The notes under the pieces: model-generated | Databases searched by the model: none | Told to the model about the DNA's origin: nothing | What the model saw: the letters and a program-made list of their open reading frames with translations, nothing else | DNA from: Natrinema longum | GTDB taxonomy: Archaea; Halobacteriota; Halobacteria; Halobacteriales; Natrialbaceae | DNA: 64,000 bases | NCBI RefSeq assembly: GCF_017352095.1 | Contig: NZ_CP071463.1 | Span: 930,001 to 994,000, forward strand | Reading direction: 5' to 3' | Position numbers and translations under genes: made by a program | Shown here: positions 1 through 46,381 of the stretch, one piece after another | Layout of the letters: every line of letters starts with the position of its first letter | Position numbering within the stretch: position 1 is the stretch's first letter

Positions 1-1222
1 GGAAGCCAGGGATCTGCATCCCGGAGTTCTGGATCTGTTTCGCCGTGGATTCGGGACCCATGTCAGTGGTCTCGACCCAGAAGATGGCGAAGATCGCACC
101 GCCGACGACCATGAAGGTAACGTCGATACTGATGCGAATCAGCACTTGCCACCACTCCTGGGCGACGTTCGCCGAGAACCACATCCAGTCGTTGGGTGAG
201 TAGATCGGCGCGACGTAGTAGAAGAACCCGCCGGTGGGTTGGCCCTGCGCCGAGTAGGTGCCGAGCCAGCTGGGCATATTCCCTAACTGACGGTTGAGGA
301 TCTGGCCGAGGAACTGAACGTTCGCCTGCACTGCACGAACGAGGATCATCGGCAGGACGCTCGCGTAGATGAGCTTCACGGGGAAGCGACCGCGCGCACC
401 CTTGACCCGGGCGTGGCTCAACGGGATCTCGATCCGGACGGATTCGGCGTAGACGACGATCCCGAAGATCAGGAGCGTCGTCAGGAGGGCGATGATGTGC
501 CCGTCGCCGATCAATATCGTCTGCAGACCGCCAGTCGAGAGCAGCGACCCGACGTCGACCTGTCCCGTCAGGATGCGATACCAGTCGAAGAAGAACCCAC
601 CCTGAGCGGGCTGGATGAACCCGGTCACCAGTCGCTGGCTCACGCCGGCGATGATGAACAGACCGATCCCGCTGCCGACGCCCCACTTGCTGACGACCTC
701 GTCCATGTAGAGGATGAGGACCCCGCCAACGAAGATCTGGGCGAACATCAGGATCTGGACCTGTGTCTGACCGAAGGATAGTCCTCCGAGCTGTAGCGAC
801 TGTTGGGCTGGCAGGAAGCCGCCGGCGAACACCATCGGGAGCCCGGTCAGAATCACCATCAGGACGACCAGCAGCTTCTGGAGGCCCTGATAGAGGACCT
901 GGTCCCGCGGGTCATCCGTATCCAGTCCGAGCAGGTTCGCACCGCCGAGCAGCTGCAAGACGATGCTCGCGGTGACGATCGGGCCGATACCGACCTGCAA
1001 CACTGACCCCTGAGAGCCGGCGAGGATCGCACGGAACTCCCCGAAGAGGTCGTTTGCCTGTCCGGCCTGCAGGCCAAACAGGGTGACGTTCGTCAGGAAA
1101 AAGTACAACATGAGGATGCCGACCGTCCACATCAGCTTCCGCTTGAAGGGAACGTGCCCCTCCGGACGGCGCACTGCTGGCATCCGCGTCAAGACCGGTT
1201 CAGCGGCTTCCTTCCATCCCAT
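1..1222 (-). CDS. secY: Protein translocase subunit SecY (C-terminus beyond window)
   Basis: SecY/Sec61-alpha is the pore subunit of the Sec translocon in the cytoplasmic membrane and works with SecE (encoded at 56038-56217). Reading from the ATG at 1222, the frame stays open to the window edge, giving about 407 residues; archaeal SecY is usually near 480, so the last segments are missing. The N-terminus starts MGWKEAAEPVLTRMPAVRRP, followed by many hydrophobic segments (for example WTVGILMLYFFLTNVTLFG). The N-terminal half carries VLQVGIGPIVTASIVLQLLG, and a later cytoplasmic stretch reads RIEIPLSHARVKGARGRFPV. The start lies 3 nt after the rpl15 stop, so it is the distal gene of the ribosomal operon, the usual archaeal arrangement. 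No complete ORF is listed for it because it is cut by the window edge. Confidence 0.97.
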   Translation of the reverse strand, partial: MGWKEAAEPVLTRMPAVRRPEGHVPFKRKLMWTVGILMLYFFLTNVTLFGLQAGQANDLFGEFRAILAGSQGSVLQVGIGPIVTASIVLQLLGGANLLGLDTDDPRDQVLYQGLQKLLVVLMVILTGLPMVFAGGFLPAQQSLQLGGLSFGQTQVQILMFAQIFVGGVLILYMDEVVSKWGVGSGIGLFIIAGVSQRLVTGFIQPAQGGFFFDWYRILTGQVDVGSLLSTGGLQTILIGDGHIIALLTTLLIFGIVVYAESVRIEIPLSHARVKGARGRFPVKLIYASVLPMILVRAVQANVQFLGQILNRQLGNMPSWLGTYSAQGQPTGGFFYYVAPIYSPNDWMWFSANVAQEWWQVLIRISIDVTFMVVGGAIFAIFWVETTDMGPESTAKQIQNSGMQIPGF

Positions 1223-1225
1223 ATG

Positions 1226-1714
1226 TTAGTCCTCGTTCTGTTCGGATTCGGCTTCGTCGTCGTCCTCCGCCTGCGCACGCTCCGAGATGACCACCTCACC
1301 GCCGGCAGCCTCGAGTTTCTCCTGGGCTGCATCGGAGAAGGCGTCCGCCGTTACCTCGAGCGTGTTTCGGACCTGACCGGACCCGAGGACCTTCACTTTG
1401 TCGACCTCGTGGCCGTCCTCGACGATATCGCGTGCGTCGAGTCGATAGCCGTCGTCGGTTTCCTCGGCGAGGTCCTCGGCGACGTAGAGGATCGCGTCCT
1501 CGTCTAGCTTCTGGACGTCGATCTCCGCGACCGTCTCGCGGATATCGTGGGGTCGCTTGAAGCCGTGTTTGCCCTTCGGTTCGTAGTTGTGGAACTCGTG
1601 TTTGCTGCGCCCGGCACGGCCGCGGCCACCACGGTGGCCCGCACCGCGTCGGTTCTTGTGGGAACCGCCGCTGTGGGTTCGCGATCCGCGCTGGCGTCGT
1701 TTTTTGCTCGTCAT
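1226..1714 (-). CDS. rpl15: 50S ribosomal protein uL15
   Basis: Large-subunit protein uL15 (162 aa), bound to 23S rRNA near the central protuberance. The N-terminus is the family's basic, glycine-rich rRNA-binding tail (GSRTHSGGSHKNRRGAGHRG), followed by an archaeal-type globular domain with VDKVKVLGSGQVRNTLEVTA. The last 15 residues are strongly acidic (AEDDDEAESEQNED), a halophilic touch. It sits 2 nt after the rpl30 stop and 3 nt before secY, so it is almost certainly co-transcribed with both. Confidence 0.97.
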   Translation of the reverse strand: MTSKKRRQRGSRTHSGGSHKNRRGAGHRGGRGRAGRSKHEFHNYEPKGKHGFKRPHDIRETVAEIDVQKLDEDAILYVAEDLAEETDDGYRLDARDIVEDGHEVDKVKVLGSGQVRNTLEVTADAFSDAAQEKLEAAGGEVVISERAQAEDDDEAESEQNED

Positions 1715-1716
1715 GG

Positions 1717-2184
1717 TTATCGCATCGATTCTAGGAGGTCGTTAATCTCCCCGGTTGTATGCTTTCCGAGTTGGCCGCCCTCGACGGTCGGCTTTTTGAT
1801 ACCATCGTGACCGCCCCGCGGTGGGTGAAGTCGAAGCGTCGGTGACAGGCCCTCGTCACGAAGCGTCGTCTCCTCTGCCAGGAGCGCCTCGGCGAGTGCA
1901 CCGAAGTCGTCGTAGTCGGTGTTGTCGGCCAGCCACTCCTCGTCGACGTCCGCCTGCTTGCCTTCGAGGGGTTCGGCTCGCTTCGCGAGTAGGGTCTCGA
2001 GAACGTCGGCGTCGGGCTCGCCGACGGCGACGTAATCGTTGACCTTCGCGATCATCCCCTCGTAGGTGTCGGTCTCGGGGACGAGCGCGCAGTGGTTGAC
2101 GTTGTGGATATTGAGCATCTTCAGGGTATCCTGGACGTCTTCCTGTCGATTGACTTCGCCACGAATCTGAACGATCGCCTTCAT
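1717..2184 (-). CDS. rpl30: 50S ribosomal protein uL30
   Basis: Archaeal/eukaryotic-type uL30 (155 aa), longer than the roughly 60-residue bacterial L30. It opens [20 protein letters not shown] and has the L7/L30 fold region NIHNVNHCALVPETDTYEGM. The C-terminal part SPTLRLHPPRGGHDGIKKP is typical of the archaeal family. The ATG at 2184 overlaps the rps5 stop by 1 nt (TGATG), so I prefer it over the in-frame GTG one codon upstream (2187). This suggests translational coupling. Confidence 0.96.
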   Translation of the reverse strand: MKAIVQIRGEVNRQEDVQDTLKMLNIHNVNHCALVPETDTYEGMIAKVNDYVAVGEPDADVLETLLAKRAEPLEGKQADVDEEWLADNTDYDDFGALAEALLAEETTLRDEGLSPTLRLHPPRGGHDGIKKPTVEGGQLGKHTTGEINDLLESMR

Positions 2185-2840
2185 CACTCGCTCACCTCAG
2201 CTTCCTCGCGGTTGGGTCGTCGCTGTGGGTGGCGCGACTGCGAGGCGTTCTCGAGCGCGTTGTAGGTGGCTTTCGCCAGATTGACCGTCGTTCGAGTGTT
2301 GCCGTGACTCTTGGTCCAGGCGTTCTCGATGCCGGCCAGCTCGAGGACGTGGCGGACGGTGTCACTGGCGGCCAGCCCCAACCCTTCGGGGGCGGGGATG
2401 ACCTCGACTTCGACGGAGCCGGCCTTGCCGGTCGTCCGTCGGGTCAGCGAGTGTGGCCGGTCCGAACGGTCCTCCCAGGAGCCCGAGCCGCGGGGCACCT
2501 GAATCATGTTCAGTTTCGCGATACCGATCGCCTTCTGGATGGCGGACCCGACCTGGTCGTCGCGGCCTTCCGCGTAGCCGATGAAGCCATCGCGGTTGCC
2601 GACGGCGACGACACAACGGAACTTCACGCGTCGTCCGGAGTCGGTCATCCGCTGGACCATGTTGATGTCCAGCACTTCGTCTTCCAGTCCAGGCAGGAGC
2701 TGGTCGACGAGTTCGGGTTCCTTCAGCGGGAGGCCCGAGTTGAGGGCGGTCTCCATGTCCTCGATTTCGCCCTCCTGGACCATCCGGCCGAGACGGGTGA
2801 CGGGTTCCCATCCGCTGTCGTTGTAGTTGTTTCCACTCAT
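2184..2840 (-). CDS. rps5: 30S ribosomal protein uS5
   Basis: uS5 (218 aa), a small-subunit protein at the mRNA entry site affecting decoding fidelity. The double-stranded-RNA-binding-like N domain is visible ([20 protein letters not shown]), followed by the C-terminal domain with [20 protein letters not shown] and the glycine-rich stretch [20 protein letters not shown]. The start overlaps the rpl18 end by 4 nt and the stop overlaps rpl30 by 1 nt, consistent with tight operon packing. Confidence 0.97.
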
Positions 2841-3385
2841 TCGAGAATCGCCTCTCGTACCTCGTCGAAGTGTTCGGGGAGGTCAGTTGCGTCGAAATCG
2901 CCGCTGTACAGCGGCTCGTCGAGCTGTTCTGCGTACTCGGCGATGTGCTCGCCGCGCGTGCGCGACCAGTCCGCGAGCACGCTGTCGTTGTGCGGGATCT
3001 CGAGGCCGGCGTCGATCGCGCCCTCCTGTACCGCGAACACCTTGTTGCCGGGCGTGGCCGTGTTGAGACCGATATCGAGGACCGCCTCCTCGAGGCCTGC
3101 TTCGACGGCTCGTGTACCGGCCAGCAGGCCGGTCAGATACGCCGCGGAAATGTTGCTCGTGGGGGCGTCCCAGCCGTACTCCGCCAGATCGCTCGAGTGT
3201 GCGCTTGCAAGCGTCTCGTCTCCCTGAGGTCCGGGAGTGATCAGCTGCGCCGTAGTGTGCTTGTTGCTCTTGCGAGCAACCAGGCGGGGCTTCCCCGATT
3301 TCAGCAGGCGCAACCTCTGGTGGTAGTCCGTCCGGACCTCACGGCGACGCCGCATCGGTACTTTGTATCGTGGTCCTGTCGCCAT
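2837..3385 (-). CDS. rpl18: 50S ribosomal protein uL18
   Basis: uL18 (182 aa) binds 5S rRNA together with uL5. The N-terminal region [20 protein letters not shown] is the family signature, followed by [20 protein letters not shown]. The archaeal form is longer than the bacterial protein (about 115 aa), as here. Its ATG overlaps the eL19 stop by one base (TAATG), implying coupled translation. Confidence 0.97.
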
Positions 3386-13485: not shown

Positions 13486-14391
13486 TCACTCTCTCAGTGA
13501 GAGGGGAGCGAGGGTCGCGAACAGAGCCTCCTCCGTTCGCACGACCTCGCTTCCCTGATCCGGAACCGTGTTTAGCCAGAGGTCGAACCCCGGATCGGCG
13601 GTGGGTTCGACTCCGTTATCGGCTGCATCGTCCCGGTTGGACGACGGTTCGACTGCGCCGTCTTGTCCGGACGACGCGTCGATGGCCGATTCCTCGATTC
13701 CGAGGATAGCCGGCAGCCCTCTCTCGGGCGCGCCGAAGGCGACGGTCATCCCGTCGCGCTGGACGCGTCCGGCCAGCGTCTCGAGCCGCCCGACGGTGAG
13801 ATGCTCACCGAATCGGGAGGCCGCGATACGAACGCCGGCGTCCTCACGGCCGAGTGCTGCCCGCAGGTCCGTCTGCTCGATCGAGAGCCCCGGAAGGGGA
13901 ACGTCTTCGAGCTTCGCCCGGACCGGTCGTCGCGAAGAGATCCTGACGGTCACGCGCTCCCCCTCCTCGACCGCCATGTTCGGCGGTACGTTGAGGGAGA
14001 TCGGGTGTTGCAGTCCGCAATTGACCCGGACGCGCCCTTCAGGTCCGACCTCGGTCACGATTCCTTGTCTTGACGACCCCGAACCGGTAGATTCGGAGCC
14101 GGTCTGTGACATGGCGCGGAGCGGCGGCAAGACGCCTGCGTACTCGAGTTCGTCCCGCATCCCCCAGGCCTCGTTGCGGAGGTATGGGGGCGTTGCGGCG
14201 TACCGCAACACGGTGGTGACGAACCCGCCGTCGAATCGCCCTGTTTCGCCGTCCCGATCGGGATAGACGATCAGGCGATCCGCCCGGAAGATCGTCGCCG
14301 CGCGGGCGACGTATCCGAGTTTGCGAGTGGCCTCGCGTTTGTCCTCGGCTTCCCGGCTGAGCGACGACGGCACGAGTACGCTGACAGTCAT
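13486..14391 (-). CDS. SPOUT-family putative RNA methyltransferase (COG2106 / SPOUT1-like)
   Basis: 301 aa. The N-terminal half has MTVSVLVPSSLSREAEDKRE and an insertion with OB-fold character (GIVTEVGPEGRVRVNCGLQH), as in the COG2106 family. The C-terminal trefoil-knot region includes MTVAFGAPERGLPAILGIEE and LWLNTVPDQGSEVVRTEEAL, where SPOUT enzymes bind S-adenosylmethionine. By family it is an RNA methyltransferase; the target base in archaea is not something I can infer. Its position at the head of the ribosomal operon suggests a ribosome biogenesis role. A ~45-residue Asp/Ser-rich insertion (SSGQDGAVEPSSNRDDAADN) splits the SAM domain. Confidence 0.85.
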   Translation of the reverse strand: MTVSVLVPSSLSREAEDKREATRKLGYVARAATIFRADRLIVYPDRDGETGRFDGGFVTTVLRYAATPPYLRNEAWGMRDELEYAGVLPPLRAMSQTGSESTGSGSSRQGIVTEVGPEGRVRVNCGLQHPISLNVPPNMAVEEGERVTVRISSRRPVRAKLEDVPLPGLSIEQTDLRAALGREDAGVRIAASRFGEHLTVGRLETLAGRVQRDGMTVAFGAPERGLPAILGIEESAIDASSGQDGAVEPSSNRDDAADNGVEPTADPGFDLWLNTVPDQGSEVVRTEEALFATLAPLSLRE

Positions 14392-14694: not shown

Positions 14695-14765
14695 GCGCTG
14701 GTAGTGTAGTGGTATCACGTGACCTTGCCATGGTCACAACCTGGGTTCAAATCCCAGCCAGCGCA
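14695..14765 (+). tRNA. tRNA-Gly (anticodon GCC)
   Basis: A 71-nt cloverleaf. The acceptor stem GCGCTGG pairs with CCAGCGC (14758-14764) and is followed by discriminator A. The anticodon stem TGACC/GGTCA encloses the loop TTGCCAT, giving anticodon GCC. The T arm is CTGGG-TTCAAAT-CCCAG. No CCA is encoded. No intron is seen. Confidence 0.96.
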
Positions 14766-15061
14766 CTTCTACGGCGAACAATTCCGGCGAGTACCGCGTA
14801 GCGCGTACTCGCCATCCGTGAGCCGTGAAGTCGGTCTGGATTTGAACGAGAGAAGACGCAGCCAGAGAGCGAACGAAGTGAGCAAGCGGGACCCTCTTCG
14901 CGTTGTTCAAATCCCAGCCAGCGTATTTTCGCTGAACGACAACAACGACGAGCGAAGCGAGTCGTCTGTTCAGCGAAAATCGTTCTGGATTCGAATCAGA
15001 CCGGGGTTCTGCGACCGAAGGGAGCAGGTTCTCTGGCGTGGTTCAAATCCCAGCCAGCGCA
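14744..15061 (+). repeat. Partial direct repeats of the tRNA-Gly 3' end
   Basis: The last 21-22 bases of tRNA-Gly recur downstream: 19 bp at 14905-14923 and a 22-bp match at 15040-15061. Both downstream copies are followed by the same short extension (attttcgctga), which does not follow the native tRNA. The intervals hold hairpins, for example arms at 14798-14823 and a 12-bp perfect pairing of ttttcgctgaac with gttcagcgaaaa (about 14926 to 14978). There is no coding sequence. The copies look like remnants of attachment-site duplication; see findings. Confidence 0.8.
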
Positions 15062-33636: not shown

Positions 33637-33774
33637 ATGCCCGGGGAGGGCTCCGAACCACGGAAAGACTCACTCCGTTCGTCTTTCCTGCCTTCACCTC
33701 GCTTCGCTCGGTGAAGACCACCGGGTTCTCCGCCTCCCCGGGTATTTTCGCGGCGTCGTCACTCACTACGTTCG
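33637..33774 (+). repeat. Partial tRNA-Met copies and hairpins downstream of tRNA-Met
   Basis: A 23-bp exact copy of the tRNA-Met 3' end (33637-33659; native match 33789-33811) lies 152 bp away in the same orientation. A second, inverted 18-bp copy (33733-33750 against 33784-33801, one mismatch) sits between. Three 13-bp motifs ctcRctNcgYtcg occur at 33669-33681, 33698-33710 and 33762-33774. The first two are flanked by arms forming hairpins (gaaagac/gtctttc, cttcacc/ggtgaag). No coding sequence is evident in 33522-33789. Confidence 0.78.
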
Positions 33775-33789
33775 TGGCTCCTTCGAAAA

Positions 33790-33940
33790 TGCCCGGGGAG
33801 GGCTCCGAACCCTCGATCTCCGCATGTCCCAGGTTCGAGGCTCGGCAGTCCTCGCGGGACACGGAGGCTTCCAAGGCGAAACCGCACCGAATCTCTGAAC
33901 CCTATGAGTGCGGCGCTATGTCCAGCTAAGCCACCCGGGC
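33790..33940 (-). tRNA. tRNA-Met (elongator, anticodon CAT) with intron
   Basis: Acceptor stem GCCCGGG (5' at 33940) pairs with CCCGGGC next to discriminator A (33790). The D arm, the T arm GAGGG-TTCGGAG-CCCTC and the variable region AGATC are standard. The anticodon stem is CCGCA/TGCGG and the loop CTCATAA is interrupted one base after the anticodon by a 77-nt insert at 33826-33902. An intron at this place is known for haloarchaeal elongator tRNA-Met. No CCA is encoded. Confidence 0.93.
33826..33902 (-). other. tRNA-Met intron (about 77 nt)
   Basis: Inserted between position 37 and 38 of the anticodon loop. The ends should form a bulge-helix-bulge with exon bases, cut by the archaeal splicing endonuclease. 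The boundary could shift by a base or two since the flanks share bases. It contains no recognisable ORF or C/D-box guide. Confidence 0.75.
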
Positions 33941-44745: not shown

Positions 44746-46326
44746 TCAGTCGTCGGCCGGCGCGAGCGGTTGCTGGTCGGCCGCGAGCAGTCGATCGAGC
44801 GCGTCGACCATCGCCGTGACGCTCGCGCGAGTGATGTCGGCCTCGCTGCGGGCGACCGTCACCGAGCGGTCGTTGCGACCCATCGTCACCTCGACGGTGA
44901 CGACGGCGTCGGTGCCGCCCGTGACCGCGTCGACGTGGTAGGACTCGAGTTCGGCGTCGGCCATCGACCCCAGCGCCTCGCGGACGGCGGAGACGGCGGC
45001 GTCGACGGGGCCCGAGCCGGTCCCGCTGGCGACGCGTTCCTCGCCGTCGACGGCCAGCCGGATGCTCGCAGTGGGGACGGCACCCCCGCTGGTCGCGGTG
45101 AGATCGAGCAGGTCGACGACGCGGTCGCGGTCCTCGCCGGTGACGTCCTCGGCGATGGCCAGCAGATCGGCGTCCGTCACTCTGCGGCCACGGTCGCCGA
45201 GTTCGGTCACCCGGTCGGCGATCGCCGCGATCTCGTCGTCGTCGGCCTCGACGCCGTGTTCCTCGAGCGTTGCTTTGACGCCCGCACGACCGGTGTGTTT
45301 GCCCAGTGCGAGTCGACGTTCGCGGCCGACGGTTTCGGGCGCGTAGGGCTCGTACATCTTGTCGTCTTTGAGCGTCCCGTCGGTGTGGATCCCGCTCTCG
45401 TGGGTGAAGGCGTTCTCGCCGATGACCGCCTTGTTCGGCGGGAGCTGGACGCCCGTCGCTCGAGAGACGGTCTGTGCGAGTTCGTACAGCTCCTCGAGTT
45501 CGAGCGTCTCGACGTCGTAGACGTGCGAGAGGGCGATCGCGACCTCCTCTAAGGCGACGTTGCCGGCGCGTTCGCCGAGCCCGTCGACCGTACAGTGGAC
45601 GAGGTCGGCCCCCGCCGAGACGGCCGCGAGCGCGTTGGTCACGCCCAGCCCGAGATCGTCGTGGGTGTGGGCACTGACCGGCCCGATGTCGGCGAGCCGG
45701 GAGACCGCCTCGTGGGTGTGTTCGGGCCCCGTGTGGCCGACGGTATCGGCGAAACAGAACCGATCCGCGCCCGCCTCGAGGGACGTTTCGGCCAACTCCT
45801 CGAGGTAGTCGAGGTCGGCCCGCGAGCCGTCCTCGCCGATGACCTCGACCCAGAGGTCGTGGTCTTTGGCATAGGCGACGAGTTCGGCGGTTTGCTCGAG
45901 GTTGTCCTCGCGGGAGGTACCGACCTTCCCTTCGATGTGACGGTCGCTGGAGGGTACCACGATGTGGACCCCGTCGACGTCACACTCGAGCGCGAGGTCG
46001 ATGTCGCCTTTCATCCCGCGACAGAAGCTCGTGACGCGGGCGTCGAGATCGAGGTCGGTCACCCGCGAGATCGCCTGTCGCTCACCCGCGCCCGTACAGG
46101 CGCTGCCGGCCTCGATGACGGAGACGCCGGCACGCTCGAGCGACCGAGCGATCTCGACCTTTTCGTCGGGTGAAAGCGAGACACCCGGCGCTTGTTCGCC
46201 GTCACGAAGCGTCGTGTCGAGAAGGCGCACTGTCCGATCCGATGCGATCGTCTGTTCGGGGGAGTGAGTTACAGGCAAGAGTGGTGAGTTACGGTTACTG
46301 CGGTTACGTTCGTCGGAGAATTTCAC
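44746..46326 (-). CDS. 2-isopropylmalate/(R)-citramalate synthase family enzyme
   Basis: About 526 aa if GTG 46326 is the start; GTG 46230 (VRLLDTTLRDGEQAPG) is an alternative. The TIM barrel begins LLDTTLRDGEQAPGVSLSPD, with the metal motif SAHTHDDLGLGVTNALAAVS and GLGERAGNVALEEVAIALSH. The C-terminal ~120 residues form the LeuA dimerisation/regulatory domain (TSGGAVPTASIRLAVDGEER). Which of acetyl-CoA + pyruvate or 2-oxoisovalerate it uses is not decidable here. A palindrome sits between its TATA box and start. Confidence 0.88.
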   Translation of the reverse strand: MKFSDERNRSNRNSPLLPVTHSPEQTIASDRTVRLLDTTLRDGEQAPGVSLSPDEKVEIARSLERAGVSVIEAGSACTGAGERQAISRVTDLDLDARVTSFCRGMKGDIDLALECDVDGVHIVVPSSDRHIEGKVGTSREDNLEQTAELVAYAKDHDLWVEVIGEDGSRADLDYLEELAETSLEAGADRFCFADTVGHTGPEHTHEAVSRLADIGPVSAHTHDDLGLGVTNALAAVSAGADLVHCTVDGLGERAGNVALEEVAIALSHVYDVETLELEELYELAQTVSRATGVQLPPNKAVIGENAFTHESGIHTDGTLKDDKMYEPYAPETVGRERRLALGKHTGRAGVKATLEEHGVEADDDEIAAIADRVTELGDRGRRVTDADLLAIAEDVTGEDRDRVVDLLDLTATSGGAVPTASIRLAVDGEERVASGTGSGPVDAAVSAVREALGSMADAELESYHVDAVTGGTDAVVTVEVTMGRNDRSVTVARSEADITRASVTAMVDALDRLLAADQQPLAPADD

Positions 46327-46381
46327 GCCCAGCCGGGTCGCCCCGACTTCCTCTATCCTCGTCAGATGGCGTCTGGCGTGC

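Follow-up and report, generated by a model that had tools for sequence, protein, structure and literature searches.

A tRNA-Met gene in a 64-kb stretch of the Natrinema longum genome (the window, analysed over its full 64,000 nucleotides) is followed by what is probably a copy of a family of haloarchaeal non-coding mini-elements, ∼70–185 bp long, which insert behind tRNA base 73 and duplicate ∼22 bp of their target. The units share an architecture and a near-constant duplicated box, are present or absent between relatives with the junction at the tRNA end, occur as related inserts behind different tRNAs, and conserve their structure on one strand. Their short length, lack of coding capacity, presence at many sites, presence/absence between relatives and target-derived direct repeats are among the properties by which MITEs are recognised. 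We infer that the units move in a transposition-like way, as hairpins of single-stranded DNA, and that staggered cutting of the target gives rise to the repeats.

The tRNA-Met and tRNA-Gly loci

The tRNA-Met gene, which ARAGORN did not call when run on the 64-kb window, is separated by a 130-bp insert from a second copy of its own 3′ end (Table 1). A sequence-only reading had described this copy as an exact 23-bp direct repeat with an inverted 18-nt copy in between, and both are there: the direct repeat is exact (33637–33659 and 33789–33811, 152 bp start to start), 22 of its 23 bp belonging to the tRNA and the last base being a chance match, and the inverted pair (33733–33750 and 33784–33801) has one mismatch. 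The inverted copy overlaps the inverted arm of the unit and is part of that unit, a hairpin arm closed by the distal repeat. When the insert and copy are folded as single-stranded DNA, a left hairpin is followed by a large hairpin that encloses two small ones and has an outer stem formed by the inverted arm and the distal copy; the fold has a z-score of −3.8, and none of 200 shuffles was equally stable. The repeats, and the earlier suggestion that a process lies behind them, stand, and what that reading had not noticed is the hairpin closure, the structured and repeated nature of the whole segment, and its gain and loss between relatives.

The tRNA-Gly gene carries two such units in tandem. 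Exact direct repeats of at least 17 bp, lying 70–320 bp apart, are found in the 64-kb window only at tRNA-Met and tRNA-Gly; across 80 other loci (637,900 bp, themselves chosen for their units), 93 of 116 repeat pairs of at least 19 bp include the T-loop. Elsewhere in the window, Rfam models identify an L4-Archaeoglobi ribosomal leader (13943–14042, minus strand; 74.6 bits) and a leuA-Halobacteria RNA (46315–46367, minus strand; 73.2 bits).

Table 1. Positions of the tRNA-Gly and tRNA-Met genes and of the units behind them, in window coordinates
Feature	Position	Strand	Remarks
tRNA-Gly(GCC)	14695–14765	plus	proximal repeat 14744–14765
Unit 1 after tRNA-Gly	14766–14903	plus	left hairpin, inverted T-arm, right hairpin; motif 14871–14881
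Copy 1 of tRNA-Gly 3′ end	14904–14925	plus	19 bp exact
Unit 2 after tRNA-Gly	14926–15039	plus	motif 14950–14960
Copy 2 of tRNA-Gly 3′ end	15040–15061	plus	22 bp exact
tRNA-Met gene, intron-bearing	33790–33940	minus	from the sequence, read by eye; A73 = 33790
Proximal repeat, 22 bp, 3′ end of tRNA-Met	33790–33811	minus	
Left hairpin (hairpin A) of tRNA-Met unit	33745–33789	minus	begins TTTTC directly after tRNA base 73
Motif GA-AC-GTA-GT-GA within hairpin A	33763–33773	minus	
Inverted arm of tRNA-Met unit	33724–33742	minus	complements distal copy and tRNA 3′ end
Two inner hairpins of tRNA-Met unit	33662–33718	minus	GA-RC-GNA-GY-GA motifs 33699–33709 and 33670–33680
Distal exact copy of tRNA-Met bases 52–73, 22 bp	33638–33659	minus	

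Copies of tRNA 3′ ends in Natrinema genomes

The tRNA set of the N. longum genome comprises 46 genes (45 Rfam matches plus tRNA-Met), of which 17 are followed, within 500 bp downstream, by a direct copy of their 3′ end with a score of at least 17; upstream of the same 46 genes, the single match scoring at least 12 is a neighbouring tandem tRNA-Asp. Comparison of the ends of other tRNAs, near-identical ones included, with the same flanks gave a null distribution with a 99th percentile of 14, a 99.9th percentile of 23 and a maximum of 40, and these null scores, together with the absence of comparable repeats from the rest of the window, lead us to reject a chance origin of the copies. Of the 17, two depart from the plain unit: a tRNA-Asp has its best match in the tRNA gene that comes next, and at 442103 a stretch of ∼32 bp is duplicated in near-tandem. 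At a score of at least 14, copies follow 17/46, 12/46 and 17/46 tRNAs in N. longum (G000) and the congeneric genomes G047 and G159, respectively, the counts for G047 and G159 including tandem tRNA neighbours and, in G159, one weak inverted match; stricter extraction leaves 15 (of 46), 11 and 15 unit-bearing tRNAs, the G159 set being without its tRNA-Met. About one-third of the tRNA genes in the three congeners thus precede hairpin units ending in an exact or near-exact copy of their last 22 bases, and 29–35 of 46 per genome are without units. The proposal that two tRNA genes sharing this arrangement point to a process rather than chance, for which a check of other tRNA genes, of relatives and of spacing had been suggested, is borne out by these copies and by the order-wide signature described below, with a fairly regular spacing and a duplicated box that is almost constant at about bases 52–73.

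The edges of the box were measured at 42 loci (33 from the three genomes and nine of tRNA-Met), none of them selected by unit pattern, with copies found by exact match at positions −18 to −7 only. Identity to the tRNA is 100% at −21, 93% at −20, 79–98% at −6 to −1 and 81% at −22; outside the box it is 7–43% to the left of −22, and 45–60% over the first three bases past the end, then mostly 31–36%. The insert has a median length of 102 bp (5–95% range, 72–185 bp) over 173 units, with pattern-chosen loci included and a few units counted twice, such as the one unit each of L234 and L277 that was counted from two tRNA-Gly rows.

Architecture and folding of the units

The typical unit begins with a left hairpin, often headed by a T stretch; next come an arm that is the complement of the T-loop region and either one inner hairpin or two, and the duplicated target closes the unit. 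The inverted structures seen in units are internal hairpins. A motif of the form GA-RC-loop-GY-GA, with GNA or GNNA as the loop, occurs 102 times in the tRNA-sense strand against once in the antisense strand of 153 distinct units (0.25 in shuffles), and 51 times against once in 55 units that were not pattern-chosen. The R·Y position of the motif is A–T in 54 cases, G–C in 48 and another combination in 12; the stems flanking it mostly pair well above shuffled partners, and the sense strand is the better-folding one in 130 of the 153 units with DNA parameters and in 140 with RNA parameters.

Loops of the type C(GNA)G form very stable DNA mini-hairpins, a kind also named in papers on aptamers. 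GNNA loops of the units are rarely GNRA (2/16), and G·T (85) is about as frequent as A·C (83) over all unit stems, disfavouring a reading of the hairpins as RNA only; an RNA role stays conceivable because G·T exceeds A·C (31 versus 18) in hairpins with 5–6-nt loops, which are mostly left-type. Single-stranded DNA is the favoured working form. The inverted arm fits its own tRNA best in 19 of 45 units and uniquely best in only 10, so that a re-matching of the arm after a jump may be entertained as an idea with one good example.

Gain, loss and probable movement between tRNA genes

A direct comparison of occupied and unoccupied sites is provided by the tRNA gene at G000:2267071 (anticodon GCG, Arg, by eye), where G047 and G159 have the tRNA followed immediately by CTCACTCCTT and N. 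longum has the tRNA, a unit, the copy and then CTCACTCCTT, the flank resuming exactly past the copy with 81 of 90 ungapped bases alike with G159 (score 72). The CTCACTCCTT flank itself resembles an antisense-type unit of greater age, the copy of which is only 13 bp long, and in G159 it is followed by another, different unit. Behind tRNA-Gly, G047 carries an extra unit that directly adjoins the tRNA on one side and the homologue of N. longum unit 1 on the other. For tRNA-Lys and tRNA-Met, 30 loci each were taken by BLAST rank from 81 and 61 genomes, respectively, a choice that favours loci resembling those of N. longum because of the ranking. Recognisable units of two types were found by eye at 15 of the 30 tRNA-Met loci, in the orders I, II, I-II, II-I and II-II, the other loci having none or remnants, and the distal copy is truncated or decayed in at least 4 of the 15 unit-bearing loci (by eye). 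The flank past the copy of the unit in L211 is the flank found directly after tRNA-Met in L214, a shared sequence that may belong to an integrated element. Altogether 24 occupied junctions have a unit-less counterpart, of which two are trivial (tandem tRNAs) and most of those at tRNA-Lys and tRNA-Met compare a unit after another unit with one of the same kind directly after the tRNA; clean empty sites are few because downstream flanks diverge fast.

Related inserts are found behind different tRNAs. When pattern-chosen loci are excluded, 61 units give 172 pairs in which the tRNA tails differ and the units align at E ≤ 1e-3. Among the best are one pair within G047 (81% alike over 94 bp) and two between genomes (85% over 85 bp; 96% over 50 bp), and in these three pairs each repeat fits its own tRNA at 20–22 of 22 positions. 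With pattern-chosen loci included such pairs number 1,602, examples being one of 92% over 71 bp and another of 95% over 60 bp; shared structural constraint could explain part of this cross-tRNA similarity. In the 96% pair, the right-hairpin core follows two tRNAs with different T-loops, and the arms, GATGTGAAC versus GACTCGAAC, are each closest to their own T-loop (by eye). Arrays include two identical tandem units at tRNA-Met in L220 and two that are 98% alike in L278, and left and right hairpin variants at tRNA-Lys appear reassorted between genomes (by eye). A tRNA-Gly gene of G159 is itself duplicated in tandem with a similar unit after each copy (G159:C29:40740–41231; L373, L375), and units may accompany the duplication of whole tRNA genes as well.

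Distribution

Of 195 Halobacteriales genomes, 153 contain a strict signature, defined as an inverted T-arm, 18–48 bp and a direct T-arm, whereas a reversed-pattern control gave no match at all; in a sample of the phylum the signature was present in 21 of 24 Halobacteriales genomes versus 4 of 124 others, the four looking like chance matches. These prevalence figures are lower bounds because the strict pattern misses many units: N. longum has 7 matches against 15–17 unit-bearing tRNAs, and the tRNA-Met unit of the window does not fit the pattern. Two congeneric genomes that are 99% complete, G007 and G071, have no strict-pattern match.

A variant pattern searched across 84,980 named species matched at least 120 stretches, 80 of which were used for tRNA context, insert lengths and repeat pairs; going by their titles, 79 of these 80 are haloarchaeal and the other belongs to an unplaced Euryarchaeota MAG. 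The 80 loci hold 87 matches, 83 with a tRNA upstream (82 at 34–392 bp and one at 3,141 bp), and of the tRNA-linked copies 67 agree with their tRNA at a minimum of 20 of 22 positions and 10 at 17–19, with 6 below 17 or cut. The remaining four comprise L244, beside an opposite-strand tRNA-Ser (by eye), and three at locus edges. Units were found in 25 of the 30 similarity-ranked tRNA-Lys loci, spanning many genera. Plasmid records were matched by the tRNA-Met unit (five) and by the tRNA-Gly stretch (two); four of these seven (H2, H3, H4 and H6) were inspected.

Insertion model and alternative explanations

In the proposed sequence of events, the element would insert exactly behind tRNA base 73 through a staggered cut of ∼22 bp at the target, duplicating bases 52/53–73, so that the tRNA would stay intact and its 3′ end reappear past the element; new units would enter beside the tRNA or at the distal copy, whereby arrays would grow and turn over, and the mobilising enzyme would presumably act in trans. 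Insertion by such a staggered cut fits the data because the repeats are target-derived, the box is near-constant and movement is cross-tRNA. No autonomous copy of a unit was recognised in loci reaching up to ∼8 kb beyond the tRNA. Some units may be kept for a function, a possibility raised by their occurrence at tRNA-Lys in many genera. A bolder form of the model is tentative and, taken as a whole, doubtful: the unit would be a single-stranded hairpin parasite (or tool), inserted at the T-loop/3′ end of many tRNAs by a haloarchaeal integrase that makes staggered cuts of a constant 22 bp, building CRISPR-like arrays without Cas and having its left arm re-formed for each tRNA. If the mini-element reading is right, most sampled haloarchaeal genomes carry mobile hairpin DNA behind some of their tRNA genes, which would explain partial tRNA copies that otherwise resemble prophage scars, could offer proviruses landing sites, and would point to an integrase with tRNA 3′-end targeting and a fixed ∼22-bp cut; because the unit signature is easy to score, genetics and the comparison of strains offer ways to look for such an enzyme.

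Among the alternatives, it is unlikely that the units are att mini-elements of tyrosine integrases, tiny circles with the tRNA 3′ end as attP that are moved in trans by resident integrases. The 3′ ends of tRNA genes are a classic integrase target, the integrase profile PF00589 is matched in 12 of 12 genomes (nine matches in N. longum, six over the cut-off), new units are able to enter beside the tRNA, and the locus L270 has a 3.1-kb insert with its own tRNA-Val copy between tRNA-Val and unit. An integrase available in trans is, however, not discriminating, as PF00589 did not separate the genomes with and without strict-pattern matches among these 12, and integrases are also present in all six checked genomes with no such match. 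Since an att site brings its own tRNA tail, a jump by an att circle would give a foreign acceptor strand, but the tail was not found to travel with the element: related inserts at different tRNAs bear the local tail, for which later gene conversion could account. Double-stranded circles of ∼120 bp are, in addition, hard to form.

A further reading, in which the units are functional tRNA trailers (a terminator or processing module) that evolved where they stand as gene end and trailer were duplicated together in tandem, is improbable, although several features are in keeping with it: tRNA-Lys genes often have units, sites without a tRNA also carry related hairpins with T runs behind them, and G·T is in excess in the 5–6-nt-loop hairpins. 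Units also often begin with a T stretch, like the intergenic terminator motif of Haloferax, described as a T stretch ending at C (PMC7237163). T stretches at the trailer start are, however, only moderately commoner behind unit-bearing tRNAs (30/41) than behind others (48/97), the majority of tRNAs in each genome manage without a unit, and the loop types and overall G·T to A·C balance do not favour RNA; the cross-tRNA similarity and the clean presence/absence require copying between loci.

It is very improbable that the units are scars left by proviruses or by other integrated elements, with attL and attR persisting after loss of the body. Integrated elements, also in haloarchaea, normally have a partial tRNA copy at their distal end (PMC3119063), but the insert lengths are fairly uniform, the hairpin architecture is common to the units, and the exact tandem units, the 98%-alike pair and the shuffled tRNA-Met arrays are hard to reconcile with deletions that occurred independently. 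A comparison with 50,697 phage records gave no match to either unit of the window; the strict pattern, to which the tRNA-Met unit does not conform, was absent from 2.9 million viral contigs, and a loose viral scan matched at least 120 stretches, with nothing unit-like among the matches listed (80 loci). Given the tandem and shuffled arrays and the lack of phage-record matches, prophage att scars are rejected as a general cause.

Least probable of all is integration by Cas1, in the manner of casposons or CRISPR, or IS200/605 (REP/PATE-like) transposition, which uses single-stranded DNA hairpins and for which we know of no target duplication, as against the 22-bp duplication of the units. The Cas1 profile (PF01867) is matched in 16 and the Y1 transposase profile (PF01797) in 26 of 59 genomes of the order, with no match to either in the N. 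longum genome; the reverse transcriptase profile (PF00078) gave no match in 12 genomes, N. longum included, and no retro-element is indicated. Resident Cas1, Y1 transposase or reverse transcriptase is rejected as the mover on the strength of these searches in N. longum, even though casposons make target duplications of 1–27 nt (median 15) and some overlap tRNA 3′ ends (PMC4046053).

Comparison with known systems

No description of the units was found in the titles and abstract openings of the papers retrieved on tRNA-linked repeats and elements in haloarchaea and on related points, or in the passages of the papers cited here. Integron gene cassettes form arrays, carry an attC site that acts as a folded single-strand hairpin and enter beside a fixed anchor; they resemble the units in being arrayed, in ending in a single-strand hairpin and in anchor-side entry, and the units differ in having no cassette genes, in targeting tRNAs and in the 22-bp duplication. 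The 178-bp repeats of Escherichia coli tyrT, associated with RtT RNA (presumably RF00391), likewise lie in tandem behind a tRNA gene, each with the last 19 bp of the tRNA, but are confined to a single locus; RtT RNA is absent from the three Rfam gathering matches of the window.

The nearest haloarchaeal precedents found are the PATEs and repeat-mediated deletions of Haloquadratum, and haloarchaeal MITEs and PATEs are, as described in PMC3119063, tied to known transposons. Such elements and the units are alike in being small, non-coding, repeated, palindromic and presumably trans-moved, with direct repeats flanking insertions; unlike those MITEs and PATEs, the units lie behind tRNA genes, of which they duplicate ∼22 bp and with which they pair, and no parent transposon was found in loci reaching up to ∼8 kb. 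Casposons share with the units insertion next to tRNA 3′ ends, duplications of up to 27 nt and an intact target gene, but encode Cas1 and PolB (PMC4046053), whereas the units are ∼100 bp and non-coding, with no Cas1 detected in N. longum. Archaeal integrases use parts of tRNAs as att sites, and SNJ2-like tRNA-targeting elements resemble the units in targeting the 3′ part of the tRNA and in ending with its copy (PMC8371274); the units differ in having no genes, a near-constant 22-bp box and repeats that match the local tRNA where related inserts lie behind another one. The SNJ2 virus uses a hairpin as its replication origin (PMC13107129).

Candidate gene-bearing units and hairpins away from tRNAs

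A search for gene-bearing units added L270 to L203 and gave further copies 446–466 bp out in L231 and L338. In L203 (G202, positions 661–1388), the left hairpin of a tRNA-Met unit is interrupted by ∼950 bp flanked by a TGATAAC repeat and containing two ORFs, one encoding a MarR-like winged helix of 131 aa and one of 111 aa without a Pfam match, and this is possibly a cargo-bearing unit. In L270 (Haloterrigena salina, positions 1–3300), the ∼3.1 kb between tRNA-Val and the unit ends in its own tRNA-Val copy and contains a 486-aa ORC/CDC6-like ORF.

The hairpin motif has 148 matches genome-wide in N. longum against 62 for a reversed control. One locus among the first 100 of the 148, L470 (G000:C1:1302900–1303420, minus strand), has the 3′ end of a 359-aa ORF followed by a hairpin unit with T runs, an exact 30-bp copy of that 3′ end, an identical unit and a diverged third copy; the insertion site is thus not wholly tRNA-specific, with one case behind a protein gene. 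The same hairpin motif is found in a dispersed non-coding repeat family at ∼563, 774, 1758 and 2282 kb of G000:C1 (L471, L472, L474 and L475), with the sequence GGGGGAGGGCAGGC ... GAGTGAGCGAAGCGAACGAGCGGGC ... GGAGTGCTTTTGATCGAAATTTT, subject to variation, and with no Rfam match at gathering thresholds. On three haloarchaeal plasmids, of Natrinema, Halorientalis and Salinigranum (L466, L467 and L468), the non-coding region that holds the motif is similar, and ∼190 bp downstream of the motif lies a conserved gene for a protein of ∼300 aa, the Natrinema version of which, the one of the three that was scanned, has a weak OB-fold match; this region is perhaps a single-strand DNA region, for example an origin or a transfer leading region.
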